Shown: positions 13,935 to 38,833 of the stretch, piece by piece
Layout of the letters: every line of letters starts with the position of its first letter
How positions within the stretch are numbered: the stretch's first letter is position 1
DNA from: Verrucomicrobiota bacterium
Lineage (GTDB): Bacteria; Verrucomicrobiota; Verrucomicrobiia; Opitutales; Opitutaceae
NCBI GenBank assembly: GCA_016235555.1
Contig: JACRKC010000114.1
Span: 186,001 to 250,000, forward strand
Direction of reading: 5' to 3'
DNA: 64,000 bases
Notes under the pieces: generated by a model
The model's database searches: none
The model's input: the letters and a program-made list of their open reading frames with translations, nothing else
Told to the model about the DNA's origin: nothing
Position numbers and translations under genes: made by a program

Positions 13935-14738
13935 ATGATTTCACCAGAATGCCCCCGCGTATTCTCAATCGTTAGCAAGCTGATCCTTTCTTTCGCCGTC
14001 TTGTCGGCGGCTGGATTTGCGGAGGCTGCCGGACCCTTCGACCAGTCGCATGCGCGCTTTGCCCGCGTGCTCGGCGCCGTCGTGCAAGACGCGCGCGTGG
14101 ACTACGCCAAGCTCAAGGCCAGCCCGGCGGAGCTGGACGGATACCTGCAGGACGTCGCGGCCGTGCCGGCGGCGGAGTTCGCGCGCTGGCCCGAGGCGGA
14201 CCGGCTCGCGCTTCTCATCAATCTCTACAACGCGCAAACCCTGCGCCTGATCATCGATCACTATCCCTTGGCGAGCATCCGGAGCATCGGCATGCTTCCG
14301 GGCGCGGCGTGGCGTGAGCCGGTCGTGCGGCAAGGCGGCCTAATCATGACCCTCGATCATTTGGAGAATAAGGTCATCCGCGTGCAATTCCGGGAGCCGC
14401 GCATCCACTTCGCGCTCGTGTGCGCCGCCGTCGGCTGCCCGCCGTTGCGCGCCGAGCCTTATGTCGGTGCCCGCCTCAACGATCAGCTCGACGATCAGGC
14501 GCGGCGGTTTCTCGGCGCGAAGGAGAAAAACCGCTTCGATCCGGCGACCGGCACGTTGAACCTCTCCCCGATTTTCAAATGGTATGCCGAGGACTTTACG
14601 GCCGCGGCCGGCTCAGTGGCGGCCTACGTGAAGGCGTTTCTCCCGGAAGCGCAGCGTCAGGCCCTCAGCGATCCTGCCAAGGTCAAAGTGACCTACACCG
14701 ACTACGACTGGGCGTTGAACGAGCTCAAACGGCGGTGA
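13935..14738 (+). CDS. DUF547 secreted protein
   Basis: A 267-aa protein with an N-terminal signal (SKLILSFAVLSAAGFAEA, residues about 15-32) and a DUF547 domain with the landmarks LLINLYNAQTLRLII, HFALVCAAVGCPPL and LSPIFKWYAEDF. DUF547 proteins are extracytoplasmic and likely thiol-linked or protease-like, without settled function. The gene is convergent with the Lgt-like gene and overlaps its end by 14 bases (14725-14738). Confidence 0.85.
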   Translation: MISPECPRVFSIVSKLILSFAVLSAAGFAEAAGPFDQSHARFARVLGAVVQDARVDYAKLKASPAELDGYLQDVAAVPAAEFARWPEADRLALLINLYNAQTLRLIIDHYPLASIRSIGMLPGAAWREPVVRQGGLIMTLDHLENKVIRVQFREPRIHFALVCAAVGCPPLRAEPYVGARLNDQLDDQARRFLGAKEKNRFDPATGTLNLSPIFKWYAEDFTAAAGSVAAYVKAFLPEAQRQALSDPAKVKVTYTDYDWALNELKRR

Positions 14739-15417
14739 CCGGTGCGGTGCCCTTGGGGCGACGAAGCCATTGCCAGCCGGCAGCGCCCCCCAGCATCAGC
14801 GCGAGGGCGATGCCCTGTTGGATCGAGAGGCCGAGAAACCGTTCCGGCCGGCCGTCGGCGCGCAACGGATCGAGCGCGAGCCGCAGTGCGCCGTAGAGCG
14901 CTCCGTAGGCGCAAAACGCGGCACCGCACGCGAGGCGATGCGCGTTGACCGAGCGCAACACGCGCGCGGCCAGAAACACGATGACGAGCAAACCGGCGGA
15001 CTCGTAAAGTTGGACAGGATGTGGAGCACGTCCGGCGCAGCAGCCTTCACAGTAACAGCCGACGCGCCCGATCGCATGGCCGAGCGGAAGCGCGACGCCG
15101 AAATAATCCGCGCCGCGCCAGAAGTTCAGTCGGCGCCAGCAGGCAAAACCACCGGCGGCCAGAGCCGCACCGACCAAACCGCCGAAAAACACGAAACCGG
15201 TGCCGAAGTCGGCCCAGAGCCGTAACTCTCCCGTGGCGTAGTGGCGCCACCCGAGCCCGACGAACAGCGCCTTGGCCCCGATGATTGCACCGATGACGAT
15301 CAACCAGAGCGCCGCCCAAAACTCGTTGTCCGAAAGCCCCATCGCCCGATGGTGACGCCGCAGCCAGGCGATGGCCGTCACCGCGCCCGCCGCCGCAAAC
15401 ACGCCGTAGGCGCTCAT
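14725..15417 (-). CDS. Lgt-like membrane protein (prolipoprotein diacylglyceryl transferase family)
   Basis: A 230-aa multi-span protein of the Lgt family. It keeps GRVGCYCEGCCAG (where Lgt has the GRxGNFxNGExWG or GCFxxGCC signature) and HPVQLYES. At the place of the catalytic HGGL segment it reads FVFFGGLVGA, so the essential His of E. coli Lgt is Phe here. It may act on another lipid or acceptor, or have lost transferase activity. Its ATG overlaps the radical SAM stop (ATGA), and it ends the leftward operon that also makes a 39-aa exported peptide. Confidence 0.8.
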   Translation of the reverse strand: MSAYGVFAAAGAVTAIAWLRRHHRAMGLSDNEFWAALWLIVIGAIIGAKALFVGLGWRHYATGELRLWADFGTGFVFFGGLVGAALAAGGFACWRRLNFWRGADYFGVALPLGHAIGRVGCYCEGCCAGRAPHPVQLYESAGLLVIVFLAARVLRSVNAHRLACGAAFCAYGALYGALRLALDPLRADGRPERFLGLSIQQGIALALMLGGAAGWQWLRRPKGTAPVTAV

Positions 15418-16715
15418 GCGGTGGCCGCCACGACCGGTTGCCCGACGCGATAGAATTCCTCGCGGAGGCCCAGGGCATTGACGGCGCACATGGGCGCGAG
15501 CTGGCCGTCGAGCGACACCTTGAACGCGCACGCGTCGAGCCGCTCCTGCCCGGCCGGCGTGGCGGTTTCAGCCGCGCTCATGAAATGGTGGCTCACGATG
15601 CAAAAGTAATTCCCGCGCAGCGTGCCGGTCCGGCACCAGAGTTTCCATGCGTGCGGCAGGAGTTGTCGCAGCGCGAAGCCGCCGTGGCGGGCCGTCATCC
15701 AAGCGGCACGGCGCAGCGCCCGCCAGCGATCATCCAGGCGGAACGACATGCCGCCCACACGAGCGAACAGCTCGCTCAGCGTCCGCATCTCGTCCGGCCG
15801 GTCGCGGCGGTAGAGCGGAAACAACCGCGGACGACCCGGCCGGGGGTGACGCACGGCGAACCCCTGCACGAACCGGGAGCATGCGGGATGGCCAAGCGAG
15901 CCCTCGGCGCGGCGGATTGCAGGATCACCCGTGCCCTCGGCGATTTTCTCCCACAGCTCGTCGGGTGAGACGCCGCGCAGGTTGGGATCGGTCCGGCCCA
16001 CGTCGGCGAGCGGCTGGAAGCTCACCATTTTGAAAGCGTCCGCATGTGCGAGCAGACAGCGAACGATGCCGGGAACTCCGGCGAGATTCGCGCGCGTCAC
16101 GGTGACCGTGGAGGCCGCTTCGAGGCGGCGACCGGTGGCTTGCCGGGCGGAGCGGATCATCGAGGCGAATTCCGCGCGCAGCGGGTCGAGGTCGGCCTCG
16201 ACTTTCGCGAGGGCGAAACGATCGCGCCGGCCGCGCTGCGTCGTGTCGATGTGCAGGCTGATTTCGGTCAGCCCACCCTCCACCATGTAGCGCTTGAGCA
16301 GGCCGGGCCGACGCCGAAAGGTCTCCCCGTGGGTCATGAGCATCGGCACGAGTCCGATCGCGCGCGCATACTGGATCAGTTCGATGACCTCGGCGTCGTT
16401 GCGGAGCGAGACTTCGCCATCGGTCAGCTGCACGTTGCCGGCCGGGCCAAGCCACGTGCGGAGGACGTCCAATTGCCGCTTGATGTCGGCGAGCGGACGG
16501 GGGCGGGCGCGATTGGCGTCTTCACCGAGGTAACACCCTTTGCAGGCGAAATCGCACTTGGGCATGGCGCCAATCGTGGCTCCGCATCCGGCGTAGTGTC
16601 GGCCGAGGAATTGCGTCGGCGTCCTGAGACGAGCGGGCAGCCGAGCCCACGCCGCGGCCAGAGCCGCGCGCGTCGCCACGGCCTCCCGCCGGAGCTGCAC
16701 CGCCGTGTCGGTCAC
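15414..16715 (-). CDS. Radical SAM enzyme of the peptide/Lgt-like operon
   Basis: A 433-aa radical SAM protein with the iron-sulfur motif CDFACKGC (Cys54, Cys58, Cys61) and further motifs QLTDGEVSLR and LTEISLHIDTTQ. The C-terminal part has extra cysteines (HPACSRF, NYFCIVSHHFM, DACAFKVSLDG, LAPMCAVNA) that could hold an auxiliary cluster as in SPASM enzymes. I chose GTG 16715 because it forms a GTGA overlap with the small peptide stop; the frame upstream has no credible Met. It is coupled at both ends, to the peptide gene and the Lgt-like gene, so it may modify that peptide or a lipid. Confidence 0.85.
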   Translation of the reverse strand: MTDTAVQLRREAVATRAALAAAWARLPARLRTPTQFLGRHYAGCGATIGAMPKCDFACKGCYLGEDANRARPRPLADIKRQLDVLRTWLGPAGNVQLTDGEVSLRNDAEVIELIQYARAIGLVPMLMTHGETFRRRPGLLKRYMVEGGLTEISLHIDTTQRGRRDRFALAKVEADLDPLRAEFASMIRSARQATGRRLEAASTVTVTRANLAGVPGIVRCLLAHADAFKMVSFQPLADVGRTDPNLRGVSPDELWEKIAEGTGDPAIRRAEGSLGHPACSRFVQGFAVRHPRPGRPRLFPLYRRDRPDEMRTLSELFARVGGMSFRLDDRWRALRRAAWMTARHGGFALRQLLPHAWKLWCRTGTLRGNYFCIVSHHFMSAAETATPAGQERLDACAFKVSLDGQLAPMCAVNALGLREEFYRVGQPVVAATA

Positions 16716-16831
16716 TTTTTGGCCGGCGCCGCGGGTGCGGCCGGATCGGGTTGGGCCGAAGGCGTGAAGCACGCCGTCCCAAGAGCGAACAGGGCCGCAA
16801 ACGCCGTCAGCATGAGAATCGTTTTCTTCAT
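16712..16831 (-). CDS. Small exported peptide or lipoprotein precursor, 39 aa
   Basis: MKKTILMLTAFAALFALGTA followed by CFTPSAQPDPAAPAAPAKK: a textbook signal peptide, then a Cys and a Pro/Ala tail ending KK. The residues before Cys21 (LGTA) are close to, but not, an ideal lipobox. Its stop overlaps the GTG of the radical SAM gene. It sits 69 bases after the anti-sigma gene in the same direction. It could be a lipidated or radical-SAM-modified peptide; the function is not known. Confidence 0.65.
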   Translation of the reverse strand: MKKTILMLTAFAALFALGTACFTPSAQPDPAAPAAPAKK

Positions 16832-16900: not shown

Positions 16901-17638
16901 CTATGGCCGCTCGCGAAGCGCACTCGCGCCGGCGGCGGTGACGAGTGAAAATGCCAGACGCGAGTTCGACCATGTCCTGGCGGAGAACCGGCCCTCCGTG
17001 GCGAACTCCGGAGTGATCGAAGCAGGGCCGGCGAAGTCTTCCCTCCGCCCGACGTAAAGGTGAAATTCGCGGTCGCGACCGAAACAGATCTCGAAGACCT
17101 CGCGCCCGCCAATGCGAACGGTGCGACATCCGGCGGCCCGTAGGCGGTCGAGGTCGACATCCGCGTCGGAGCCTGGGCCGAACGACGCGAGCGCAAACCC
17201 TTCCGCGATTTCTCGGGCGGCAGCGGTGGGTCGCAAATGATCGCCGCCGTGGAGGGCCGTGTCCCCCAGCGCGAATCGGGCGAGATCGGACATGCGCGGT
17301 TGCGGCGGGACAGGCCGAAGAGCGAGGCCGGCGATGGCGACCAGCAGGAACGCGGCGGCAAAAGCGAGCCACCGCGGTCGGAGCCACCATAATCGCTTTC
17401 GCCGGCTCACCCGCACACCGGCGAGACTCGTATCGCGCAGGCCGGGAGGTGGCTGAACCTGCTGCAGCTTTTCCGCGACCAAGCTGTCGAAGGCGATCTG
17501 CGCTCCGAGCCACGCCCTCAACTCCGGATCGCGACACGCTTGGTCGAGCGATTCCGCAAAGAACGGGTCGGTGGCGTCGCGCCCACTTGGACGGTAGGCT
17601 GCGAGCACGAATTTGGCTTCGACGTTTTTCATGCGCAC
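16901..17638 (-). CDS. Anti-sigma factor (membrane-anchored), ECF pair 1
   Basis: A 245-aa protein with an N-terminal cytoplasmic part (DPFFAESLDQACRDPELRAW), one membrane helix (LAFAAAFLLVAIAGLAL, about residues 90-106) and a C-terminal extracytoplasmic domain. It overlaps the sigma stop by 10 bases, the standard layout for sigma/anti-sigma pairs. It is a paralogue of the protein at 38834-39598; both share the DPxFxExLxQAxxDPELRAWLG block. No zinc-binding HxxxCxxC motif is present, so it is not a ZAS-type anti-sigma. Confidence 0.75.
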   Translation of the reverse strand: MRMKNVEAKFVLAAYRPSGRDATDPFFAESLDQACRDPELRAWLGAQIAFDSLVAEKLQQVQPPPGLRDTSLAGVRVSRRKRLWWLRPRWLAFAAAFLLVAIAGLALRPVPPQPRMSDLARFALGDTALHGGDHLRPTAAAREIAEGFALASFGPGSDADVDLDRLRAAGCRTVRIGGREVFEICFGRDREFHLYVGRREDFAGPASITPEFATEGRFSARTWSNSRLAFSLVTAAGASALRERP

Positions 17639-18162
17639 GCGACAGCCGGCGAGGCCGCGGAATTGACGGTCGCCCGCTCAAGGAGGGCACGCAGCTGCCG
17701 TTTTCCGCGAAAGAGGCGGGTGCTCACGGTGCCGAGCGGCACCGAGAGGATCTCCGCGATTTCCAGGCAGGAAAACCCCTGCAGGTAGAACAAGGTGAGC
17801 GCTTCGCGAAACACGCGATCTACGTTTTGCAGCGTGGCGAGGACGACCTCCGCGTCCATGCGCGCGGAAACATCCGGGCCGAGATCCGGCGGATCACGAT
17901 CGAAGGGGGACATCTCCTCGAACGAGGAAAAACGCAGCGCCCGCCGTCGGGTGCGCAGGAACTCGCGATACAAGGTCGTGAAGAGCCAGGTCTTCGCCTT
18001 CGCCGTGTCGCGCAGCGCGTGACCATGCTTGGCCCAGGCGAAATAGGTCTGCTGCGTGAGATCGGCGGCGTCAGCCGGACGCTTCGAGAGGCTCAACGCG
18101 AAGCGGTAAAGCGCCGCATAGTGGGCCTCCACGAGCCGGGAAAACGTCTCCTCGTTGTGCAT
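17629..18162 (-). CDS. ECF RNA polymerase sigma factor, pair 1
   Basis: A 177-aa sigma-70 family protein with region 2 (RFALSLSKRPADAADLTQQTYFAW, residues about 20-43) and region 4 (LTLFYLQGFSCLEIAEILSVPLGTVSTRLFRGK). It starts the leftward operon sigma, anti-sigma, peptide, radical SAM, Lgt-like protein. The GGAATAA-N14-CGTC motif 13 bases before its ATG is the usual place of an autoregulated promoter. It is closely similar in layout to the sigma gene at 39591-40136. Confidence 0.9.
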   Translation of the reverse strand: MHNEETFSRLVEAHYAALYRFALSLSKRPADAADLTQQTYFAWAKHGHALRDTAKAKTWLFTTLYREFLRTRRRALRFSSFEEMSPFDRDPPDLGPDVSARMDAEVVLATLQNVDRVFREALTLFYLQGFSCLEIAEILSVPLGTVSTRLFRGKRQLRALLERATVNSAASPAVACA

Positions 18163-23709: not shown

Positions 23710-25269
23710 CTAGCGGCGCGTCCAGCCCAGCCAAAGGCCGAAAAGCTTTTTGACGAAGGGCGTCAGGCGCGTGCGGCTGTATTGGTCGCCGGTCTTGCGG
23801 ATCGCCTCGGCCTGGGTGGGATACGGATGGATGGCGGCGCCCACGGTCTTGAGTCCCAGCCTGCCGTTCATGGCGAGCGTGAACTCGGAGATCATGTCGC
23901 CGGCGTGCGCGGCGACGATGGTGGCGCCGAGGATTTCGTCCGTGCCCTTGCGCACATGCACCCGCACGCAGCCATCAGTCTCGCCGTCGAGGGTCGCGCG
24001 GTCGACCTTGTCGAGGCTCTGCGTATAGGTGTCCACTTCGATGCCCTTTTCTTTGGCGTCCTTTTCATAAAGGCCCACGTGGGCGATTTCCGGCGACGTA
24101 TAGGTGGCCCACGGAATATTGAGCGCACTGGCCTTGGCCCGTCCGCCAAAGAGCGCGTTCTGGATCACGATGCGCGCCATGAAGTCGGCGGCGTGGGTGA
24201 ATTGATACGGCGAGCAAATGTCGCCGCAGGCGAAGATGCGCGGATTGGTGGTCTGCAGGCGGTCGTTCACCTTCACGCCTTTCTTGTCAAAGGTGACGCC
24301 GACGGTCTCCAAGCCGAGGCCCTCCACATTTGGGGCACGGCCAACCGCCACGAGCAATCGGTCGACCACCACGTCGTAGCCCTTGCCATGCGATTCGACC
24401 TGTAGGCGCACGCCCTGTGGCGCCTTCGAGAGTCTGAGGTCCTTGCCGCAACAGAGCAGTTTTACGCCGTCCCGCATGAGCGTCCGCTGCACGATGTCGG
24501 CGGCGTCCCGATCTTCGCGGGGCAGAATTCCATGGGCCGCCTCGACGAGGAACACTTCCGACCCGAAGCGCGCGAAGCTCTGCGCCATCTCGCATCCGAT
24601 GGGACCCGCTCCGATGATGGCGAGCCGCCGGGGCAATTCAGTCAGCGAGAAGAGCGTCTCGTTCGTCAGGTAAGGCACGTCCTTGAGTCCGGGAATCGCC
24701 GGCGCAGCCGCACGGGCACCGGTGGCGATCACGGCTTTGGTGAATCGCAAGGACTTGTCGCCGACTCGCACGGTGTCTGGGCCGGAGAATTTTGCGCTGC
24801 CGATGAAAACGTCGACGCCGAGTTCGCGGAAACGCACCGCGGAGTCGTGCGGGCTGATGTTGGCGCGGAGTCTCCGCATCCGCTCCATGACCGCGGGAAA
24901 ATCGACAGACACGCCGCCTTGGATCGAGATGCCAAACTCGCCGGCCGCGCGCGCCTCGGCCGCCGCGCGCCCGGCGCGGATCAGGGCCTTGGAGGGCACG
25001 CAGCCGACGTTGAGGCAGTCGCCGCCGAGCAGGTGCTTTTCGATCAGGGCGACGCGTGCGCCCAAGCCCGCTGCACCCGCTGCCGTCACGAGGCCAGCTG
25101 TGCCGCCGCCGATGACGACGAGGTTGTAGCGGGGTGCGGGCTCTGGATTCACCCAGTCGGGTGGGTGGACATGGCCGTAGAGCTTGTGGTTGTGCTCGTC
25201 CCACGGCTGCAGCGGACCGTTGTCCGTTGCGTGGGCCGCGGGCGCGGGACTGGTTGACGGGGTGCTCAT
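23710..25269 (-). CDS. FAD-dependent pyridine nucleotide-disulfide oxidoreductase (mercuric reductase/dihydrolipoamide dehydrogenase-like)
   Basis: A 519-aa class I disulfide reductase: FAD site VVIGGGTAGL (about 51-60), redox-active pair in GGDCLNVGC (Cys85, Cys90), NAD(P) site IIGAGPIGCEM, second FAD motif ACGDI and the C-terminal His-Glu region (HPYPTQAE). It lacks a MerA-type N-terminal HMA domain and C-terminal CC, so mercury is not implied. It starts with an unusual 45-aa polar N-terminus. A TVP38 membrane gene ends 5 bases upstream, a pairing also seen in other bacteria. Confidence 0.9.
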   Translation of the reverse strand: MSTPSTSPAPAAHATDNGPLQPWDEHNHKLYGHVHPPDWVNPEPAPRYNLVVIGGGTAGLVTAAGAAGLGARVALIEKHLLGGDCLNVGCVPSKALIRAGRAAAEARAAGEFGISIQGGVSVDFPAVMERMRRLRANISPHDSAVRFRELGVDVFIGSAKFSGPDTVRVGDKSLRFTKAVIATGARAAAPAIPGLKDVPYLTNETLFSLTELPRRLAIIGAGPIGCEMAQSFARFGSEVFLVEAAHGILPREDRDAADIVQRTLMRDGVKLLCCGKDLRLSKAPQGVRLQVESHGKGYDVVVDRLLVAVGRAPNVEGLGLETVGVTFDKKGVKVNDRLQTTNPRIFACGDICSPYQFTHAADFMARIVIQNALFGGRAKASALNIPWATYTSPEIAHVGLYEKDAKEKGIEVDTYTQSLDKVDRATLDGETDGCVRVHVRKGTDEILGATIVAAHAGDMISEFTLAMNGRLGLKTVGAAIHPYPTQAEAIRKTGDQYSRTRLTPFVKKLFGLWLGWTRR

Positions 25270-25274
25270 GAATT

Positions 25275-26000
25275 TCACGCGGCCGGTTGGGTCCGCTTGG
25301 CGAGCGCACGGCGGGCGATGCGCGTGACGAACACCGTGACGGCCAGGGTCGCGAGGAGACCGACACCGTAGAGGGCCAACTCCGCCGGGGATTTCGTTCC
25401 GCCCGCCGTTCCGACACGGGCCAGCGAGCCCAGATAAACATACATCACCGTGCCGGGCATCATGCCGATCCACGAAGCTAGCACGTAGTCGCGCAGCGAC
25501 ACGCGGGTGACGCCGAAAGCGTAGTTGAGAAGCGCGAAGGGAAAGACGGGCGAGAGGCGCGTAAGGCCGACGATTTTCCAGCCCTCGGCGGCCACGGCGC
25601 GATCGATGGCGGCGAAAGTGACGTTGCCCTCGATTTTTTTCGCGACCCAGGCGCGGGCGAGATAGCGGCCGACCAAAAATGCGGCGGTCGCTCCCAGCGT
25701 GGACGCGAGCGAAACGTATACCGAGCCCAACGCCACGCCGAACACTGCACCCGCCCCCAAGGTGAGAACAGAGCCCGGCAGGAAAAACACGGTCGCGGCG
25801 ATGTAAATCAGCACAAACAGCACCGGCCCCCACGCACCGAGCCCGGCGACGGCTTCCAGAGTGTCGCGCAGAATCCCGCGCACGTCGAACCGTGTGAAGA
25901 CAATCGCCAGCGCCGCCGCGACAACGAGGAGGACGGCCCATTTTCGCCATCGGCCGGTCTTCGCCGCATCGTCCGGGCAAGTCGGAATTGTTGAAGTCAT
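25275..26000 (-). CDS. TVP38/TMEM64 (DedA-like, VTT domain) membrane protein
   Basis: A 241-aa protein with five or six membrane spans and the VTT domain hallmarks PGSVLTLGAGAVFG and LTRLSPVFPFALLNYAFG. VTT proteins are lipid scramblases or transporters. It sits just upstream of the flavin disulfide reductase. A weak ECF-type motif lies 52 bases before the ATG. Confidence 0.88.
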   Translation of the reverse strand: MTSTIPTCPDDAAKTGRWRKWAVLLVVAAALAIVFTRFDVRGILRDTLEAVAGLGAWGPVLFVLIYIAATVFFLPGSVLTLGAGAVFGVALGSVYVSLASTLGATAAFLVGRYLARAWVAKKIEGNVTFAAIDRAVAAEGWKIVGLTRLSPVFPFALLNYAFGVTRVSLRDYVLASWIGMMPGTVMYVYLGSLARVGTAGGTKSPAELALYGVGLLATLAVTVFVTRIARRALAKRTQPAA

Positions 26001-29608: not shown

Positions 29609-29995
29609 TTAACGAGCAGAAGTCTTTTTCGCGATCCAGACGATGAGTCCAAACACCGCGAGCGCGCCGAGCGGGGTCGTGTTTGCGGCGAGGTCGGTGG
29701 GGAAAATCAGTAGGAACGGGTGTCCCTTCGTGAAGGCCGCAAAGCTCGAGACACAGAACGGCACGAGAAAAAACCGGAAGGCCGGCCAAAAACCCACGTC
29801 GCGGATTCGCCCGCCGGTGGGCACAGCGTTGAGCACGAGCATGCTCCCGACGATCGCCGCGATGCCGAGGGCGCGCAACCAGAGTGCGGCGTCGCGCTCG
29901 GCATAACGCACCGCCAGCGCGGCATACCAGATGCCGGCGCCCCAGAGCACAATCCTCCGGTGATCGAGCGTGGAGAGGTAGCGAAGCAAGGGCAT
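29609..29995 (-). CDS. Hypothetical membrane protein, 128 aa
   Basis: A multi-span protein with about four hydrophobic segments (WGAGIWYAALAV, ALGIAAIVGSMLVL, FWPAFRFFLVPFCVSSF, ALAVFGLIVWIA). No family is recognised. The next gene upstream on the same strand is the fused glycosyltransferase, whose stop is 15 bases away, so it is probably the last gene of the glycosyltransferase operon. Confidence 0.6.
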   Translation of the reverse strand: MPLLRYLSTLDHRRIVLWGAGIWYAALAVRYAERDAALWLRALGIAAIVGSMLVLNAVPTGGRIRDVGFWPAFRFFLVPFCVSSFAAFTKGHPFLLIFPTDLAANTTPLGALAVFGLIVWIAKKTSAR

Positions 29996-30009
29996 CGGTG
30001 GCGGGCGCG

Positions 30010-32028
30010 TCAGGTCGCCGTCGAGTAATATTTTTTGTAGAGCGCGGCGGTAAACCGGGCGGCGTTCCGCCGATTCCACCGATAGCGTGCGGTCATCGCG
30101 ATGACCGAAAGACAGCGTTTGAGCCAACGCTCTTTGCGCCAGCGGCGATCGGAGGCGATCAGACCACCTCCCAAATAGAGCGTCGGGCCGGCGGCTCTCG
30201 CCCGCAGGCTGAATTCGACGTCCTCCATCAGCGGCAGGCCGGGAAATCCGCCGACACTAGCGAGCGCCGCGCGCCGAAAGAACTGCCCTTGGTCGCCGAA
30301 GGAGATTCCGAGAAAGAGCGCCCGAAAATCATTGAGCATTTCGATGACGACGAGGCCGGGCGAATCGGCGTTGAACCGCTGGCCGACGGCGCCGCCGAGG
30401 GCGCTCGGGTCGGCATTGAACGCGTCGAGGATGCGCCGGCCCGTGTCGGGAGAGATGATGGCGTCGGCATGCAGCACGAGCACCACGTCGCCGTGCGCGA
30501 CACTCGCCCCTGTCGCGATCTGGTGCCCGCGGCCCGGCGCGGCGAGCACAATGACGGCGCCGGTGCTCGCCGCGATCTCGCGGGTGCCATCGACGGAGCC
30601 GGCATCAGCGACGATGATTTCCGCCGGTGCGGGCGACATCCGCGCCACCGATCGGAGGCAACCGCCGAGGTTGCCCGCCTCGTTCAAGGTTGGGATCACG
30701 ACGGAAAATGTTCGCACGGGCGCGGCGGGCTCGCGCCGGCGAAACTTTTTCCACAGCGCTGGCAGCGCGATGATCGCCTCGCGGAGCAGTGCCGCGCCGA
30801 AGGCCAACCAGATCGCGTTCTGCGCCCAAGACGGCAGGCCCCAGTCACGGCCGGCCTGCACTTCGCGCAGCACCAGAAAATAGAGCGCCATCACGCCGCT
30901 CAACGTGAGCCATGCCAGCGAGGGAAACAACGGGAGAAAAACGAGCGCCCACGAAAGATACCAATAATGGACCGTCGGCGACAGGCCGACGAGCCCGCCG
31001 AAAATCCAAAACGTCGCCCGCCAAGGATCGCCCTGAACGAGGACCACGCCGACGATCCAGGCTGCGAGGAGCGCCGTGCAGAGCGCCGCCGCGGTGGGAC
31101 GATCGCCGAATGCCGACCACGCGAGGGCGTGAATCGAGCCGTTGAACGCGAGGTCGGCCCCGAAATGGCGCACGCCCGCCAGCCACGCCGGCATGTCCGC
31201 CAGATAGGGAAGGAACGGCAGCAGCACCGCCGCGCCGCCTGCCCATGCGGTGCGCCAGCCGCCGCGCCGCAATAGCAGCGGCAGAAGGAGGATGGCGACG
31301 AGCTTCACTTGCACGGTCAGCCCAAAGGCGATCCAGCTCCAGACTGGGCGCCGCCGCTCGCGCAGCCAGAGCGTGAGCAGCACGAAGAAGAGGAGCATCG
31401 CGTCGAAGTGCGCCTCGCCCGCGAAGCCGATGAGCGGAACGGGATTGAAAGCGTAGAGTCCGGCCAGCCCCGGCGGCTGACCGCGCGCCGCCAGCATCGC
31501 GAGGAGCAGCGCCACCACGCCGAGGTCGAAGGCGATGAAAAGCAGCTTGAGGGCCGTGGCGTCGTAGCGCAGCGCCCCGATAGCGGCAAAGGTCCACTCG
31601 GCCACGGGCGGATAAATCGTGCGGAGATCCTTTTGATTCATGCCCTGCCAGTAGGCGTCGCGACGCTGCTCCCATTCGGACGCGGAGGCGACGTGGGCGT
31701 AGGGACTTTGACCTTCACGGATGAGCCGTCCTTCCCAGAGGTAGCGATTGACGTCCGAGTCGGGCGGATGCGGCAGGAGCGTCAGCCGCGCGACCAGCGC
31801 CAGCAAGAGGAGGCCCCACTTCTGGGCGCGCGGCGTGATGTTGCGCGGCCACCGCAAGGTCACCGCGAGACCGACCGGCACCAGCAACGCAAACCCGGCG
31901 ACGCGCGCCCAAGGCGTTGTCTGCACCCACGCCGATCCTCCGAATACGGCGCAGATCGCGAGCAAGACGGCAACGGCCGCGGCAAACACTCCGTGGCGCC
32001 ACCGCTGAGCGCTGTTTGCAGGCGTCAT
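30010..32028 (-). CDS. Fusion of a polyprenyl-type membrane glycosyltransferase and a TIGR04283-type GT2
   Basis: The first ~420 of 672 aa are a GT-C type membrane protein with around ten helices and the loop HPPDSDVNRYLWEGRLIREGQ (residues about 85-105), as in mannosyltransferase-like proteins using polyprenyl-phosphate sugars. Residues about 450-655 are a complete soluble GT2 (SVVIPTLNEAGNL, VADAGSVDGT, VLHADAIISPDTG, PLMEDVEFSLRARAAG). The two are in one frame with no stop. The next gene upstream (GT2 at 32025) overlaps its start by 4 bases. Confidence 0.85.
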   Translation of the reverse strand: MTPANSAQRWRHGVFAAAVAVLLAICAVFGGSAWVQTTPWARVAGFALLVPVGLAVTLRWPRNITPRAQKWGLLLLALVARLTLLPHPPDSDVNRYLWEGRLIREGQSPYAHVASASEWEQRRDAYWQGMNQKDLRTIYPPVAEWTFAAIGALRYDATALKLLFIAFDLGVVALLLAMLAARGQPPGLAGLYAFNPVPLIGFAGEAHFDAMLLFFVLLTLWLRERRRPVWSWIAFGLTVQVKLVAILLLPLLLRRGGWRTAWAGGAAVLLPFLPYLADMPAWLAGVRHFGADLAFNGSIHALAWSAFGDRPTAAALCTALLAAWIVGVVLVQGDPWRATFWIFGGLVGLSPTVHYWYLSWALVFLPLFPSLAWLTLSGVMALYFLVLREVQAGRDWGLPSWAQNAIWLAFGAALLREAIIALPALWKKFRRREPAAPVRTFSVVIPTLNEAGNLGGCLRSVARMSPAPAEIIVADAGSVDGTREIAASTGAVIVLAAPGRGHQIATGASVAHGDVVLVLHADAIISPDTGRRILDAFNADPSALGGAVGQRFNADSPGLVVIEMLNDFRALFLGISFGDQGQFFRRAALASVGGFPGLPLMEDVEFSLRARAAGPTLYLGGGLIASDRRWRKERWLKRCLSVIAMTARYRWNRRNAARFTAALYKKYYSTAT

Positions 32029-33548
32029 GACCGCGCCAATTCGGAAGCGGGTGCCGTTCCGACCGTGAGCGGCGTTTCCTTCGGGCCGCCCTGCTCAAGC
32101 AGGCTCAAGACGCCCACGATAAAGAAGCTGATCGAATACACCGCGAGAAAGCTCCCGATCGCATAGCGGCCCGTCGCCAAATACGACGCGAGACTGATCG
32201 CGCAGTAGAGCCCCATCGCCAGTTCGATCCACGGGGCGACCGACTTCCGGGAGACGTATCGCCGCTTCCGGCTGGCGCCCTGCTTGGGTGTGCGCACGAA
32301 TTCGCCGGTCTTACCGAACAGGGCCTCCAGCACGGCGTGCGTGTTGTTAACGGTCAGCCCAATGCCGAGGCCCGTGAGCACCGGCAGCCAACGCAGCCGC
32401 CACGGCCAATCGCGATGCAGGCTGCGCTGGCTCGCCAGATAGACGGCGTTTGGGGCAAGCACAACAATGGCGAGGGCCGCCACCACGATGGGCAGCCACC
32501 CGCGCGGCAGGTTGACGGGGAAGTGCGTCATGACCGGCCAGGCGAACAGCGCCACTGCGAGCATGAGCGGATGAATCGAATAGTGGGTCAGGTGCAGCGC
32601 GGCTTGGATTTTTGTCCAAGCCGGCACTGCGCTGCGCAGGATGCGGGGCAGGAGTTTTCTGGCCGATTGGATCGAGCCCTTGGCCCAGCGGAACTGCTGG
32701 CTCTTGAACGCGGCGAGTGTCGGGGGCAGTTCGCCCGGCGCCACCAGTTCCGCGATATAGTGCGTGCGCCAGCCAGCGAGCTGCGCGCGGTAGGAAAGAT
32801 CGAGATCCTCGGTGAGCGTGTCCGCCGACCACCCGCCGGCCTCCTCGATCGCGCGCCGCCGCCAGATGCCGGCCGTGCCGTTGAAATTCATGAAGAGCCC
32901 GTTGAACGTGCGGGCCGATTGCTCGACCATGAAGTGGCCGTCGATGCCGATCGCCTGGGCGTGCGTGAGCGGGGAATCCTCGCTGTTCAGGTGTCCCCAC
33001 CGGGCCTGCACGAGGCCGAGCCGTGCGTCGGAGAAAAAGAACGGCAGCGTGTGCCGCAGAAAATGCGGCGGCGGCACGAAATCGGCGTCGAAAATCGCGA
33101 TGTAATCCGCCTCGGTTTGCGCCAGGGCCGCGGCGAGTGCGCCGGCCTTGAAGCCCGCACGGTCCTTGCGCCGAAAAACGGCGATGCGATGGCCGCGATC
33201 GCGCAATTCCGCGACGATGCGATCGACGATCTCGCGCGTGTCGTCGTCGGAATCGTCGAGCACCTGAATCTCGTGGCGATCGCGCGGATAGTCGATGGTG
33301 GCGGCGGCGCGGAGGACGCGCTCGGCGACGTTGGCCTCGTTGTAGAGCGGGATCTGGGTGGCGACGAGCGGGAGTCGCCGCGATGGATCAAAGGACGGCT
33401 CCGCAATGCGAATCGCCTCGGCGGAAGAGGCCGCGTTTTGCCGCCGGCGGCGCAGGAACAACGCCACGAGGACATAACAGTTGATCCCATACAGCAGCAG
33501 CGCGAGCGACGCGGCTGCGTAGACGGCGATGAGCGCAGCGCCGAGCAT
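32025..33548 (-). CDS. Membrane family 2 glycosyltransferase (cellulose synthase/mannan synthase-like)
   Basis: A 507-aa processive-type GT2: an N-terminal helix, then QIPLYNEANVAERVL, LDDSDDDT, IFDADFVPP, LTEDLDLSYRAQLAGW and QQFRWAKG, the full D,D,D,QxxRW set, followed by four C-terminal membrane spans. It resembles synthases of beta-mannan or beta-glucan. Its stop overlaps the fused gene's start (ATGA). The gene before it, at 33552, stops 3 bases from its start. Confidence 0.88.
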   Translation of the reverse strand: MLGAALIAVYAAASLALLLYGINCYVLVALFLRRRRQNAASSAEAIRIAEPSFDPSRRLPLVATQIPLYNEANVAERVLRAAATIDYPRDRHEIQVLDDSDDDTREIVDRIVAELRDRGHRIAVFRRKDRAGFKAGALAAALAQTEADYIAIFDADFVPPPHFLRHTLPFFFSDARLGLVQARWGHLNSEDSPLTHAQAIGIDGHFMVEQSARTFNGLFMNFNGTAGIWRRRAIEEAGGWSADTLTEDLDLSYRAQLAGWRTHYIAELVAPGELPPTLAAFKSQQFRWAKGSIQSARKLLPRILRSAVPAWTKIQAALHLTHYSIHPLMLAVALFAWPVMTHFPVNLPRGWLPIVVAALAIVVLAPNAVYLASQRSLHRDWPWRLRWLPVLTGLGIGLTVNNTHAVLEALFGKTGEFVRTPKQGASRKRRYVSRKSVAPWIELAMGLYCAISLASYLATGRYAIGSFLAVYSISFFIVGVLSLLEQGGPKETPLTVGTAPASELARS

Positions 33549-33551
33549 GGC

Positions 33552-34214
33552 TCACACCGCGTGGGAAAGATTGGGCCACGCTTCCCGCAGGGCGGACGAC
33601 GCGTCTTCGTCCAGATGCCGCCGCAGGCTCTCCAAATCGTCGATGTCCTCCTTGACCGTCAGCAACGCGCTCGAAAGCCCCAGCTCCGCGACGCGATCCA
33701 GCGTCTGGCGCAGGACATCCGCCGAACTCCACGCGATGCTCTCGAAGAGCTGGGGTGCGGGCCGCCGCAGGCCGATGAGATAATACCCGCCGTCCGCCGC
33801 CGGACCGAGGACGACATCGGCCTTGCGGAGCCGTCGCGCGGCCTCGATCAGGCAGGCGCCGTCGAGCCCGGGGCAGTCCGCTCCGATGGCGATGATTTCC
33901 TTTGCCCCGCGGCGGAAGCCGCGCTCGAATGCCCGGGCGAGCCGTTGCCCGAGGTCGCCGCCCGCCTGTGCGCAATAGTGGTAATTCGCTCCCAGCCAGT
34001 CGCGCATTTCGCTCCGAGCGCCCCGCGGGGCGTAGTGGACCTCGATCCGGAAATTCTCCGGCACGCTACGCAGTTGCCGTTCCGCCATCACCCGGTAGAT
34101 CCGCGTCGCCTGATCGAAGCCGACCTGGCGGCCGAGGCGGGTCTTGACGTAACCGCTGCGCGGCGCCTTCAGGATCGCCATGACGACCGGTCGGGATAGG
34201 GAGTCGGAAATCAT
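33552..34214 (-). CDS. TIGR04282-family arsenosugar-type glycosyltransferase
   Basis: A 220-aa single-domain nucleotidyl/glycosyl transferase: VMAILKAPRSGYVKTRLG at the start, IIAIGADCPGLDG (metal and sugar-nucleotide site) and DVVLGPAADGGYYLIGL. This is the TIGR04282 pattern, a family that accompanies ArsS in arsenosugar clusters. It lies 45 bases after arsS, and the two co-directional genes probably form one transcript. Confidence 0.88.
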   Translation of the reverse strand: MISDSLSRPVVMAILKAPRSGYVKTRLGRQVGFDQATRIYRVMAERQLRSVPENFRIEVHYAPRGARSEMRDWLGANYHYCAQAGGDLGQRLARAFERGFRRGAKEIIAIGADCPGLDGACLIEAARRLRKADVVLGPAADGGYYLIGLRRPAPQLFESIAWSSADVLRQTLDRVAELGLSSALLTVKEDIDDLESLRRHLDEDASSALREAWPNLSHAV

Positions 34215-34259
34215 TTCGGCACAGGACGGGAGTTCGGCGCTCGCGAAGCGGTCATCTCC

Positions 34260-35261
34260 TCAGCCATTCAAAGCGACCGTCGCCGGTTCCGCGCCGGACT
34301 CGATGGCACCGCCGCAGCTCGAGCCGGCGCCCGCGGTGCAGCCGAAGCAGTGCGGCGCGGTGGCGATGGGTGCGCCGCTGAGCGCGGCGGGATCGAGGTC
34401 CCAGAGATGCCGGGTCGCGCGGCCAACCTCGCCGCCGAGCGGCAGCTTCATCATTTGGTTGAAATCGCAATCGAAGACCTCGCCCTCCCAGCTCACGTTG
34501 ATCGTGTCGCGACACATCAATCCGTCGACCGTCGCCGGATTGAACGACTCGATCAGCAGCGCGAGATACTCCTCATATTTTCCGTTGTGCCGCAGCCAGG
34601 ACGCAAAGCGCGACACGGGCAGGTTGGTGATGGTGTAGAGGCGGTTGAACTCGATGCCGAAGTGCGCGAGCAACTCGCGCTTGTAGTCGCCCTCGAGCTC
34701 GGCCTGCGGGCCGGGGAGCTTGGCGCCGACCGGATTGAAGACCAGGTGCAGCGGCAGCGCGGGATCGATACCGTAGCCGATGGCGTTGAGCCGCCGCAGT
34801 GCCTCGATGCTCGCCTCGAAAACGCCGTCGCCGCGCTGCGCGTTGACGTTCTCCGGCGAGTAGCACGGCATCGAGGCGACAATCTCGACGCGTTGCGCCG
34901 CCAGAAACTGTGCCATGTCCTCGTAGCCCGGCTGGAGGAGAATGGTTAGATTGCAGCGGTCGATGATCGACGCGGCGGGGTCCATCGCGCGCAGCGCGCT
35001 GACGAGATATTTGAAGGATGGGACCATCTCCGGAGCCCCGCCGGTCAGATCGATCACCGGCAGCCGAGCGCGCTGCTGCCAGACGAGGATGCGATCCACC
35101 GTCTCCAAGGCGATGACCTCTTTGCGGCCGGGGCCGGCGTTCACGTGGCAGTGCGAGCACGTGAGGTTGCAGAGCTTGCCCACATTGATCTGAAGCACAC
35201 GCGGTCGAGCCCGACGGAGCGGCAGGCCACGGGCATGAAGGACGGCGTCAAACGTTGTCAT
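34260..35261 (-). CDS. arsS: ArsS, arsenosugar biosynthesis radical SAM protein
   Basis: A 333-aa radical SAM enzyme with CNLTCSHC (Cys31, Cys35, Cys38), DLTGGAPEM, DRCNLTILLQPGYEDM and the C-terminal CFGCTAGAGSSCGG. These match ArsS, which transfers the 5'-deoxyadenosyl group to arsenic in oxo-arsenosugar synthesis. Some ArsS forms are selenoproteins; here the relevant position is Cys. The ECF-type promoter ends 10 bases before the ATG. It leads a leftward operon with the TIGR04282 transferase and two more glycosyltransferases. Confidence 0.92.
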   Translation of the reverse strand: MTTFDAVLHARGLPLRRARPRVLQINVGKLCNLTCSHCHVNAGPGRKEVIALETVDRILVWQQRARLPVIDLTGGAPEMVPSFKYLVSALRAMDPAASIIDRCNLTILLQPGYEDMAQFLAAQRVEIVASMPCYSPENVNAQRGDGVFEASIEALRRLNAIGYGIDPALPLHLVFNPVGAKLPGPQAELEGDYKRELLAHFGIEFNRLYTITNLPVSRFASWLRHNGKYEEYLALLIESFNPATVDGLMCRDTINVSWEGEVFDCDFNQMMKLPLGGEVGRATRHLWDLDPAALSGAPIATAPHCFGCTAGAGSSCGGAIESGAEPATVALNG

Positions 35262-35269
35262 TCCTCTCT

Positions 35270-35296
35270 CAGACGGGGAACAGCGTGGATTATTCC
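35270..35296 (-). promoter_or_regulatory. ECF-type promoter of arsS, GGAATAA-N14-CGTCTG
   Basis: Minus-strand GGAATAA (35296-35290), 14 bases, CGTC (35275-35272). The arsS ATG (35261) is 14 bases after the -10 start. Confidence 0.75.
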
Positions 35297-35342
35297 TGAA
35301 CCCCGGTCGATTCCTCTGAGCTTCGCGGCGCAGGAATCGAGT

Positions 35343-36473
35343 TTACCAACTCACGCGCAAACCCGTCGTCCACGCCCATCCGGCAAAGCTGCCGCCGTTT
35401 CTGGCGGCGTCGTCCATGTCGACGTGTTGCAGCCCGGACTGGAGCTTCAGTTTGTGCCCGTAAAAATAGTAATTCAGGCCGGCGTAATACTCGTTGTAGT
35501 TGTTGCCACGGCCGCCGACCGCGAGGCTCTCGTAACGGCCGAAAACGACGCCATCTTTCCCGGCGCTGTTGAGGTAGGTATAGCGCAGCACGAGCTGAAG
35601 CCGCTGGCTGAGGTTGTAGTAGGGCATGATCATGGCGCCCCAAAGATCGCTCTGACTGCCGGTGCCGGTGGCGCCGGAGAGGTCTGCCCTTACGCCGGCC
35701 CGGCCAGACTCAAAATCAAAGCTCAACGAGCCGATGTGGTGCAGCCTCCGCGTGAAGGTGTTCCTCGGGTTCGGATTTTGGAAGACGTAGTTGCCGGTCA
35801 GCGTGGCAGTTTTCACCCCAAGGCGGCCGGCAAAATCGTAGCCGAGGGTATAGAGCGCGAAGTAGCTTCCGTCGAAGCGGCCGAACTCCTTGGTGGTGCT
35901 GCCCGCGGAATACAGCCCTGCGTGGTAGCGCCAGTCGCCGGTCCTTCCGGCGGCGCTTACGCCGGGCATGTATTCCTGGGTAAACCAAAGGTTGTTGGTG
36001 AGATTGCTGCGGTCGATCGTGAGCAGCTCCTTGGACGAGGTCATGCCGTCCATCGTGAAGCCCGCGCTGTGCTTGCCCGCCGTGAGGGTGAGGGCCTTGC
36101 TCCTGCTCCAGGCGATATAGACATCTGTCAGCTTCTGATACAACGGCTCTCCCTCTGGATCGAAGTCCGCCTCGGCGTGCAAGGTGAAACTCCCGAACGC
36201 CCGGATTTTCGTGCCCATCCGCCAACGGCGGGTAGCCAGCTCCTCGAAATCGTTCCGCCGAACAAAGGCATAGTCGAGCTGGTAGCGACCAGTGAAGGCG
36301 ACGCTCTGGATCGCGGGATTGCCGGCATCTTTGTAGAGTTCGGCACGGCTCCACGTCCGCTCATACGCGGAGGGCTCGGCGGCGAAATTCGCCAACGGCG
36401 CAAGGGCCGCCGCAGCGAGCAGGGCGATGGGCCGGTGCAGGCCGCGCGCGGGAATCGGCGTTGGGACCCTCAC
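35343..36473 (-). CDS. Outer-membrane beta-barrel protein (porin-like)
   Basis: A 376-aa protein with a signal peptide (residues about 10-31, LHRPIALLAAAALAPLANFA), then short alternating-pattern strands ending in LRVSW, an aromatic-terminated barrel signature. YQLDYAFVRRNDFEEL, LRYTYLNSAGKDGVVFG and YAGLNYYFYGHKLKLQSGL are typical strand and turn segments of phosphate-selective (OprO/P) type porins. Placed after PiT and before arsS, it may admit arsenate or phosphate. A strong hairpin separates it from PiT. Confidence 0.82.
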   Translation of the reverse strand: MRVPTPIPARGLHRPIALLAAAALAPLANFAAEPSAYERTWSRAELYKDAGNPAIQSVAFTGRYQLDYAFVRRNDFEELATRRWRMGTKIRAFGSFTLHAEADFDPEGEPLYQKLTDVYIAWSRSKALTLTAGKHSAGFTMDGMTSSKELLTIDRSNLTNNLWFTQEYMPGVSAAGRTGDWRYHAGLYSAGSTTKEFGRFDGSYFALYTLGYDFAGRLGVKTATLTGNYVFQNPNPRNTFTRRLHHIGSLSFDFESGRAGVRADLSGATGTGSQSDLWGAMIMPYYNLSQRLQLVLRYTYLNSAGKDGVVFGRYESLAVGGRGNNYNEYYAGLNYYFYGHKLKLQSGLQHVDMDDAARNGGSFAGWAWTTGLRVSW

Positions 36474-36488
36474 GAGCGGCTCGCGCGG

Positions 36489-36517
36489 AGGGCTGGCGCA
36501 AATTTATCGCCAGCCCT
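36489..36517 (-). terminator. Strong hairpin between PiT and porin genes
   Basis: Perfect 10-bp stem AGGGCTGGCG / CGCCAGCCCT with a 9-base loop, located in the 79 bases between the PiT stop and the porin start. It lacks a U-run on either strand, so it may be a weak terminator, processing site or mRNA stabiliser. Confidence 0.45.
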
Positions 36518-36552
36518 GCAACTCTCGCTGGCAGTATGAAGCATGGTTTCCG

Positions 36553-37656
36553 TCATTGGAGGTTTCGGAGAGCGAGATATGAGACGGCGGCGATCGCCCC
36601 CGCGACCGGCAGCGTGACGATCCACGCGAGCGCCATGTCTCTCACCGTAGCCCAGCGAACCTGACGGGCATCACGGCGCAGGCCGAGGCCGACGATGGCG
36701 GCGCTGCTGACGTGAGTCGTGGAGACCGGCAGCGCCAGCCGGGACGCAAAGATGACGAGGACCGACGTGACGAGGTTGGCCGAGAGGCCCTCCAGCGGCT
36801 CCATCGGCGTCACTTTTTGGGCCAGCGTTTCTGTTACCTTGAATCCGCGGATGAGGCTCCCGGCGGTCATGGCCAGGGCAACGAGTAGGAATGCCGTGCC
36901 CGGCGACAGGTTGAGCGCCGCGCTGGAGATCACGCCGAGCGCGATTACTTTGGGGGCGTCGTTCAGTCCGCGGGCAAACGCAGTCGCACCGGAGCTGAGC
37001 CAGTGCAATCCATCGACCACGGTTACACCCGCGATGGTCACAGGCTGCCGGGCGCAACTCGCGGCGTCATCTATCACGATGTCGCGAGGAGCACTCAATG
37101 CAGCGAGTGTCCCACTGCCGGCCGCAGCCATAGCCGGTTGTTGCACGCAGACGCAGTAACCCTGCCAGCGCCGTAGCGCGGCGTTCACCAACGGGAAGAC
37201 CGCGAAGATCAGGGCAAGCGAAAGCAGCGGGCTTGCCGCGAGAGGAAGCGCAAACTTGGCGATCAGGAAGGACCATTGGATGCCACCCAGGCCCGACGCG
37301 ACCAAGCCGGCGCCGACGAGCCCTCCGGTGATCGCGTGCGTCGTCGAGACGGGCAGCCCGGTCGTTGTCGCGATGCCGATCCAAACCAGCGCCCCGATCG
37401 CCACACTCAGGATGAAGCCGGGTCCCTCGGGGGTCACGGCGAGCAATCCGCGTCCGCTGAACGCGGCGACCAGCCCTTGCGCCGCAAGCGCCGCGCACGA
37501 CGCCCCGGCAAACGTCCAAAGGCTTCCCCAAATGATCGCCGTGCGAAAGCGAGTCACGCCGCTGCCGACCAGGGTAGCGACGGCCTTCGACACGTCGTTG
37601 GCGCCGTTGAAAAAGCCCACCGCGAGCATCGCGGCGAAAAGGATTAAGAAGAGCAT
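36553..37656 (-). CDS. PiT-family inorganic phosphate (arsenate) transporter
   Basis: A 367-aa transporter of about ten spans. Both repeats of the PiT signature are present: GFFNGANDVSKAVATLVGSG near the N-terminus and ARGLNDAPKVIALGVI in the middle, with paired STTHAITGGLVG and STTHVSSAAIVGLG. PiT proteins take up phosphate and do not exclude arsenate. Its ATG overlaps the ArsM-like stop by one base (TGATG), tying it to the sigma 2 operon. Confidence 0.92.
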   Translation of the reverse strand: MLFLILFAAMLAVGFFNGANDVSKAVATLVGSGVTRFRTAIIWGSLWTFAGASCAALAAQGLVAAFSGRGLLAVTPEGPGFILSVAIGALVWIGIATTTGLPVSTTHAITGGLVGAGLVASGLGGIQWSFLIAKFALPLAASPLLSLALIFAVFPLVNAALRRWQGYCVCVQQPAMAAAGSGTLAALSAPRDIVIDDAASCARQPVTIAGVTVVDGLHWLSSGATAFARGLNDAPKVIALGVISSAALNLSPGTAFLLVALAMTAGSLIRGFKVTETLAQKVTPMEPLEGLSANLVTSVLVIFASRLALPVSTTHVSSAAIVGLGLRRDARQVRWATVRDMALAWIVTLPVAGAIAAVSYLALRNLQ

Positions 37657-38810: not shown

Positions 38811-38833
38811 GGCGTTTTGTGAAGTGGGTTAGA

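Follow-up and report, generated by a model that had tools for sequence, protein, structure and literature searches.

A small prolipoprotein-like peptide, a Tes-like radical SAM protein and a cysteine-variant Lgt-like protein are inherited together in one clade of bacterial loci

The stretch of Opitutaceae (Verrucomicrobiota) DNA analysed here, 64,000 nucleotides long and referred to as the window, belongs to a genome assembly of 8.0 Mb (140 contigs, 98.6% complete) and carries on its minus strand three consecutive genes, called the trio below: a small peptide, a radical S-adenosylmethionine (SAM) protein related to the archaeal enzyme Tes, and a membrane protein related to the prolipoprotein diacylglyceryl transferase Lgt. 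In the direction of reading they follow the genes for an extracytoplasmic function (ECF) sigma factor and an anti-sigma-like protein, and a plus-strand DUF547 gene is convergent with the Lgt-like gene. A preliminary description of this DNA had reported the three genes, and open reading frames (ORFs) together with domain matches confirm them at the coordinates given there:

16712..16831, minus strand: 39-residue prolipoprotein-like peptide (MKKTILMLTAFAALFALGTACFTPSAQPDPAAPAAPAKK), with homologues at 8 other loci, an invariant ACF and purifying selection
16769..16771, minus strand: codon of the invariant Cys21, the presumed lipidated Cys, within the ACF found in 9 of 9 aligned peptides
15414..16715, minus strand: Tes-like radical SAM protein, 433 residues if read from GTG 16715, assigned by profile, PDB and model matches
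14725..15417, minus strand: Lgt-like membrane protein, a cysteine variant (FFGGL, GRVGCYCEGCCAG), matching PF01790 at E 1.9e-29

Relatives of the radical SAM gene were collected by a scan of genome contigs, in which 80 loci were kept out of 112 found (81 with the window); genes were called with a home-made caller, and labels without a family call were assigned by eye. Eight of these loci also bear an adjacent Lgt-like gene, and at all eight (L017-L023 and L058) a small ORF lies directly 5' of the radical SAM gene, recognized by tblastn alone at five and through inspection of the reading frames at the other three. As judged by eye on their alignment, all nine peptides start with basic residues, continue with a hydrophobic stretch and have a Cys preceded by Ala; the ACF core is invariant, and the total length is 39-61 residues. 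Pairwise comparison of five loci (the window plus four close ones; 10 pairs, 29 codons) gives pooled nonsynonymous and synonymous divergences (pN and pS) of 0.09 and 0.58 in frame, a ratio of 0.16, in comparison with 1.58 and 3.30 in the two off-frame controls, which rules out a spurious small ORF. Both the start and the frame of the peptide are thus supported, by purifying selection and by the homologues at 8 loci. The 100 bases 5' of the peptide ATG have 18-53% identity (ungapped) among the loci compared. The peptide gene is genuine and conserved, its product having a stretch like an export signal that ends in ACF, and the ORF proposed in the preliminary description has its counterpart, with the frame conserved, in every homologous operon examined (9 of 9 trio loci). 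The tail that follows the Cys has changed much from branch to branch. It is rich in Pro and Ala, variable and devoid of Cys in the window peptide and those nearest to it, and the tails of L021-L023 show a second common pattern with two Cys.

The overlaps by which these genes had been described as coupled are only partly a general feature. The four-base overlap between the radical SAM and Lgt-like genes is kept in the window and at 6 of the 8 other trio loci (at L019 when ATG 11221 is used), whereas that between peptide and radical SAM genes, literal in the window if the latter begins at GTG 16715, recurs at just 2 of the 8 (L021 and L023). In the remaining six the radical SAM start lies 1-9 bases past the peptide stop, the gap being 9 bases at L017, L018, L019 and L058, which are the closest to the window; by comparison with the other loci, the in-frame GTG 16700 appears the likelier start in the window.

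Concerning the distribution of the trio, the peptide is accompanied by an adjacent Lgt-like gene at 9 of the 81 radical SAM loci (the window and eight others), and the remaining 72 loci have neither. Among these 72, six have fewer than 300 bases upstream and three fewer than 300 bases downstream of the radical SAM match, so the absence of both genes is firm for 63. When 28,207 reading-frame segments of the 81 loci were searched with a profile built on the nine peptides, these scored E 7e-18 or better, and no other segment had an E-value below 0.49. The peptide and Lgt hidden Markov models were built from the same nine members that they recover, and the control is that nothing else scores, apart from a weak Lgt-like match at L047, which is not adjacent to the radical SAM gene and comes with no peptide. 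In a draw of 200 genomes of the family the peptide was found in 3, and the same 3 carry the Lgt-like gene (E 1e-15 or better) and a close radical SAM homologue; a fourth genome has a distant radical SAM homologue with neither peptide nor Lgt-like gene. Some genomes apparently figure both in this draw and among the 80 loci (L056/L012, L080/L013 and L074/L014, as well as L017 and L018 with L105 and L106), so the two sets cannot be treated as independent.

A maximum-likelihood tree of 76 radical SAM proteins (75 of the 80 loci plus the window; the incomplete L046, L047, L048, L068 and L081 were left out) groups the nine trio members in one clade with support 100/99. The clade hosts Opitutaceae, another Verrucomicrobia bacterium, Candidatus Udaeobacter, two Gammaproteobacteria and one unassigned bacterium. 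Peptide, cysteine-variant Lgt-like protein and Tes-like radical SAM protein are therefore inherited as a unit, and the single clade and the co-occurrence are most simply explained if peptide and Lgt-like gene joined the radical SAM gene once and travelled together thereafter. That the three are chance neighbours in a genomic island, with unrelated functions, would fit the rarity of the trio but not a clade that keeps all three genes in order over two phyla, nor the recurrent overlap of the radical SAM and Lgt-like genes, and we regard it as very improbable.

The radical SAM protein has the intact CxxxCxxC motif (residues 54-61) that the preliminary description noted. This motif is shared without exception by the 76 complete homologues, as are C44, C279, H376, C396, M409 and C410; the extra C-terminal cysteines also pointed out there include the invariant C396 and C410 (to which C279 is to be added), but C361 and C372 vary. 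Its best NCBIfam models are Tes (E 4.2e-12) and TrsS, both far under their cut-offs: with NF045702, the Tes model, the score is 45.5 bits (41-46 bits) and the curated cut-off 450. With a profile built from 44 of the 76 aligned sequences (alignment A4), Tes (PDB 7TOL and 7TOM) is the only PDB sequence match at E 0.001 or better, reaching E 5e-17 over profile positions 47-434. The AlphaFold2 model (mean predicted local distance difference test, pLDDT, 95.1) also superposes best on Tes, residues 20-432 of the model on 57-493 of the chain, with Z 29.6 over 342 residues and a root-mean-square deviation of 3.7; the next matches are viperin (Z 18.4), SuiB (Z 16.7) and SkfB (Z 15.3). The protein is thus predicted to share with Tes, also known as GDGT-MAS, the radical SAM core and the fold of the C-terminal cluster domain, with C279, C396 and C410, putative cluster ligands by alignment, opposite Cys of the Tes C-terminal region in the profile alignment. 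Unlike Tes, it has no Cys before C44, and hence lacks the N-terminal metal sites (rubredoxin/cluster), and the alignment puts His376 opposite chain residue 459, taken as Met439 through an inferred tag offset of 20 residues. Because of these two differences it should be considered a relative of Tes and not a Tes. As a separate observation, a defence system was also considered and rejected, PADLOC giving just a weak viperin match for the radical SAM protein (E 1.6e-4).

By sequence and model, then, this Tes relative does not look like a peptide maturase. The opposite view, in which the radical SAM protein modifies the peptide as a ribosomal natural-product precursor and the Lgt-like protein lipidates it afterwards, draws on the position of the small ORF, since many radical SAM peptide systems have one just upstream of the radical SAM gene, and on the two common extra Cys in the L021-L023 tails. 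Against it stand the 72 of 81 radical SAM loci that have no such peptide, the variable, Cys-free tail of the window type, and the far closer fold similarity to Tes than to SuiB or SkfB, the representatives of radical SAM systems for ribosomally synthesized and post-translationally modified peptides considered here. We find this view quite unlikely, bearing in mind that the trio peptide was found at 9 of 81 loci and other precursors were sought with a rough filter only. As to the dedicated enzyme pair acting on a small peptide that had been suggested earlier, the conserved unit stands and lipidation is plausible, but a radical SAM protein that chiefly modifies peptides is not supported by these data.

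The last protein of the trio was correctly recognized as an Lgt homologue. It scores 103.2 bits with PF01790 (gathering score 24.9) and stays under the equivalog cut-off of TIGR00544 (79 against 118.9 bits). With residue positions taken from PMC4728403 and PMC13251419, the equivalents of R143, G154 and R239 are kept in 9 of 9 trio proteins, and those of Y235 and R246 are also kept in the window protein. Its deviations from Lgt are H103F and N146C, both in 9 of 9, and E151C, while the Y26 equivalent is Tyr in five, Phe in three and Trp in one of the nine; the full set essential in Escherichia coli Lgt (Y26, H103, R143, N146, G154 and R239) is therefore not present. PMC13251419 describes these six residues as absolutely required in the E. 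coli enzyme, but also natural Lgt proteins with Tyr, Trp or Phe at 103 and Cys at 146. Given such natural proteins and the retention of R143, G154 and R239, an Lgt-like activity of the trio protein is plausible. A canonical Lgt (HGG, GRLANFINGE) is encoded elsewhere in the source genome, so the trio protein is additional to it. Elsewhere in the collection, a 644-residue frame at L104 (G000:C108:49215-49706) seems by eye to fuse a methyltransferase, a phosphatase and an Lgt-like part with a GCC motif.

The association of Tes-like and Lgt-like genes is not restricted to the trio. At L113:7005-9194 (G000:C60) the source genome has a further Tes homologue that is closer to Tes, scoring 233 bits (cut-off 450), and only 6 bp separate it from another Lgt-like gene. 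Tes homologues at E 1e-40 are present in 8 of 387 genomes of the phylum, source genome included, and in 6 of the 8 (L113, L123-L126 and L129) the same strand carries an Lgt-like gene (PF01790, E 1.7e-21 or better) at a distance of 6-761 bases. The two unpaired homologues are L127, near a contig end, and L128, among genes that by eye are of fatty-acid/polyketide type. At L124 a PEMT/ICMT-type methyltransferase gene lies between the Tes homologue and the Lgt-like gene. Bacterial Tes homologues have been proposed, with function inferred, for the synthesis of branched glycerol dialkyl glycerol tetraethers (PMC8941075); the set described there rests on BLASTP e-values below 1e-50, whereas the window protein, at E 4.2e-12 with NF045702 in a different kind of search, belongs to a separate family. 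Among independent signs, we regard this pairing as the strongest one for the Lgt-like protein cooperating in the lipid chemistry of the radical SAM protein.

In the open-licence literature searched, no report of such a Tes-like/Lgt-like pairing was found. The words prolipoprotein, Lgt and diacylglyceryl are absent from the main texts (supplements aside) of PMC8941075, PMC9433317 and PMC11868695; a query for diacylglyceryl transferase with tetraether or membrane-spanning lipid gave no paper on the transferase among the matches listed, and the full name of Lgt together with radical SAM gave nothing relevant by title. Nor was a described system with this trio met in the literature searched, in agreement with the preliminary description.

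The same pairing gives weight to a different division of labour, in which the Lgt-like protein would act on a lipid substrate of the radical SAM protein. Lipidation of the peptide would then fall to the housekeeping Lgt, if it takes place at all, and the peptide would serve the enzymes as a small partner in the membrane, assisting or tethering them. Tes homologues do pair with Lgt-like genes where no such peptide is present, a canonical Lgt is available in the source genome, and the peptide tail diverges between branches, all of which this explanation accommodates. It sits less well with the linkage between peptide and adjacent Lgt-like gene, found together at 9 and apart at 0 of the 81 loci, and we judge it somewhat unlikely.

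The interpretation that we tentatively prefer, while giving it less than an even chance, is a dedicated lipopeptide module in which the Lgt-like protein would lipidate Cys21 and the radical SAM protein would act on lipid tails. The peptide would be exported, the Lgt-like protein would move a diacylglyceryl group from phosphatidylglycerol to Cys21, and a signal peptidase cut would leave a tail of about 19 residues on the lipid anchor. The radical SAM protein, in the cytoplasm against the membrane, would use its 5'-deoxyadenosyl radical to take a hydrogen from a lipid tail, on which its C-terminal Fe-S cluster would form a new bond; the result would be either a modified lipid that the Lgt-like protein donates or a modified peptide anchor. 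The DUF547 protein, an older partner than the peptide and the Lgt-like protein and probably exported, may act on the product outside. That the module is dedicated is suggested by the selection on the peptide, by the all-or-none distribution (9 loci with both genes, 72 with neither), by the same 3 of 200 genomes and by the single clade. The role in lipid tails is proposed because Tes is the best match of both profile and model and because C279, C396 and C410 align; the role of the Lgt-like protein in lipidation, because R143, G154 and R239 are kept and F103 and C146 occur in natural Lgt proteins. The recurrence of the Tes/Lgt pairing, and the canonical Lgt that makes the trio protein an extra one, favour the module as a whole.

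Several results weigh against this module. The lipobox consensus quoted in PMC4728403, [LVI][ASTVI][GAS]C, does not describe the peptide, which reads GTAC in the window and has Gly, Ala or Met at -3 in 9 of 9 members, outside the consensus. The essential His103 of E. coli Lgt is Phe in all nine Lgt-like proteins, and according to PMC4728403 none of the mutants H103A, N, Q, R and Y complements. Tes, as described in PMC9433317, abstracts hydrogen at the terminus of a lipid tail that sits inside a hydrophobic tunnel, and its C-terminal cluster has the labile Met439, which that work reports as completely conserved in 1000 archaeal homologues; with His376 at this position and no N-terminal metal sites, the chemistry of the window protein may differ. 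No peptide of the trio kind was found at the 8 Tes-homologue loci, so the Tes/Lgt pairing does not need one. Finally, few genomes of the family have the trio (3 of 200), and since most radical SAM loci lack both peptide and adjacent Lgt-like gene, the radical SAM protein need not touch either.

With respect to the remaining neighbours, the following genes lie around the trio or further along the window:

13935..14738, plus strand: DUF547 protein with an N-terminal signal-like helix, overlapping the Lgt-like gene; the usual neighbour of the radical SAM family
16901..17638, minus strand: anti-sigma-like protein, with weak matches only; not conserved with the trio
17629..18162, minus strand: ECF sigma factor, part of the context; not conserved with the trio
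23710..25269, minus strand: oxidoreductase containing flavin adenine dinucleotide (FAD; NF004991), with relatives at 18 of 80 radical SAM loci
25275..26000, minus strand: VTT-domain (TVP38-like) membrane protein, with relatives at 14 of 80 radical SAM loci

The adjoining DUF547 gene, like the arsenosugar-type cluster treated below, is part of a larger context that the preliminary description did not include. At 50 of the 80 loci the radical SAM gene has a DUF547 gene no more than 1.5 kb away, and in an alignment of 51 proteins an Asn, a Tyr, a His and two Cys are among the positions invariant in 51 of 51 rows. The model of the window protein (pLDDT 90.8), with its signal-like N-terminal helix, has no PDB match over Z 4.4, a result that is no proof of a new fold; a reduced alignment of the DUF547 proteins took in 40 of the 51 rows. 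For DUF547 in bacteria the open-licence literature held nothing relevant by title. Five other radical SAM loci (L024, L025, L060, L071 and L076), all devoid of an Lgt-like gene, have nearby a small membrane protein that by eye is DoxX/MauE-like; the one member examined contains a CGCF motif.

The ECF sigma/anti-sigma pair (18162-16901) adjoins the trio in the window, and stress induction of the trio had been proposed from it. Within the sequence stretches examined, a tblastn match to the pair is present at 1 of the 8 other trio loci (L018), beyond the DUF547 gene; the proposal thus has its basis in the window locus, and ECF control as a general feature of the trio is rejected.

The same window contains an arsenosugar-type cluster, with these components:

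30010..38810, minus strand: the whole cluster
30010-31989, minus strand: TIGR04283-like glycosyltransferase, its domain just under the model cut-off
33552-34181, minus strand: TIGR04282 glycosyltransferase, 192.5 bits (cut-off 134)
34260-35198, minus strand: ArsS, 417 bits (cut-off 300), 17 kb from the trio
37656-38810, minus strand: ArsM-like protein, under the cut-offs of the ArsM models

This region (29609-40136) stands behind a second sigma/anti-sigma-like pair (39591-40136 and 38834-39598), likened to the first by eye, and also has a PHO4 permease and a Porin_O_P protein.

Genes of this pathway (ArsM, ArsS, TIGR04282/04283) sometimes lie in the same neighbourhoods as the radical SAM/DUF547 family. 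Arsenosugar-type genes are found at 3 of the 8 other trio loci. In the genomes of 50 of the 80 radical SAM loci, ArsS is over its cut-off in 20, compared with 20 of the 200 family genomes (Fisher p 2e-6, the two sets differing in phylum); inside the family, ArsS is over the cut-off in 2 of 4 radical SAM genomes and in 18 of 196 others (p 0.05). Among trio genomes ArsS is over the cut-off in 6 of 9, being missing from 3 of the 8 others. ArsM of this kind (E 1e-40) is present in 10 of the 50 genomes and missing from 7 of the 8 other trio genomes. On plasmids of Burkholderia glumae (L016) and Cupriavidus (L015), a distant radical SAM gene directly precedes a DUF547 gene near ArsS, a linkage seen by eye in Cupriavidus and taken from the record annotation in B. 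glumae; plasmid records matching the radical SAM protein number 47 of 72,556, of which 45 are from Burkholderia. A search for arsenosugar together with DUF547 found nothing in the open-licence literature.

These data show a tendency of the radical SAM family to be linked with arsenosugar genes, not a requirement. An obligate role in arsenic is rejected, since ArsS over the cut-off is lacking in 30, and ArsM of this kind (E 1e-40) in 40, of the 50 radical SAM genomes. The trio could nevertheless take part in arsenic metabolism, the radical SAM protein putting dimethylarsenic on a lipid tail to give arsenolipids and the Lgt-like protein and peptide handling the product. The cluster in the same window, the genes at 3 of 8 other trio loci, the excess of ArsS in radical SAM and trio genomes and the two plasmids point in this direction; the genomes that lack ArsS or ArsM, also among trio members, and the within-family contrast at p 0.05 do not, and we hold such a role to be improbable.

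What bacterial Tes homologues do is a question that PMC8941075 and PMC11868695 leave open where they touch on it. Our boldest suggestion, which is a long shot, is that bacterial Tes-like enzymes work with Lgt-like transferases, and that the radical SAM protein of the trio links a tail of the peptide's anchor with another lipid tail, or with dimethylarsenic that the nearby arsenic genes would provide, giving a cross-linked, membrane-spanning or arsenic-bearing lipoprotein anchor, of which no description was met in the literature covered. The Tes-like/Lgt-like pairing, accompanied in one clade by a peptide of 39-61 residues, offers a small genetic handle on the function of bacterial Tes, as the three genes can be co-expressed and the outcome read by lipid and peptide mass spectrometry. 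Should radical chemistry indeed modify the lipid that anchors a lipoprotein, a new branch would have to be added to the accepted scheme of lipoprotein maturation.

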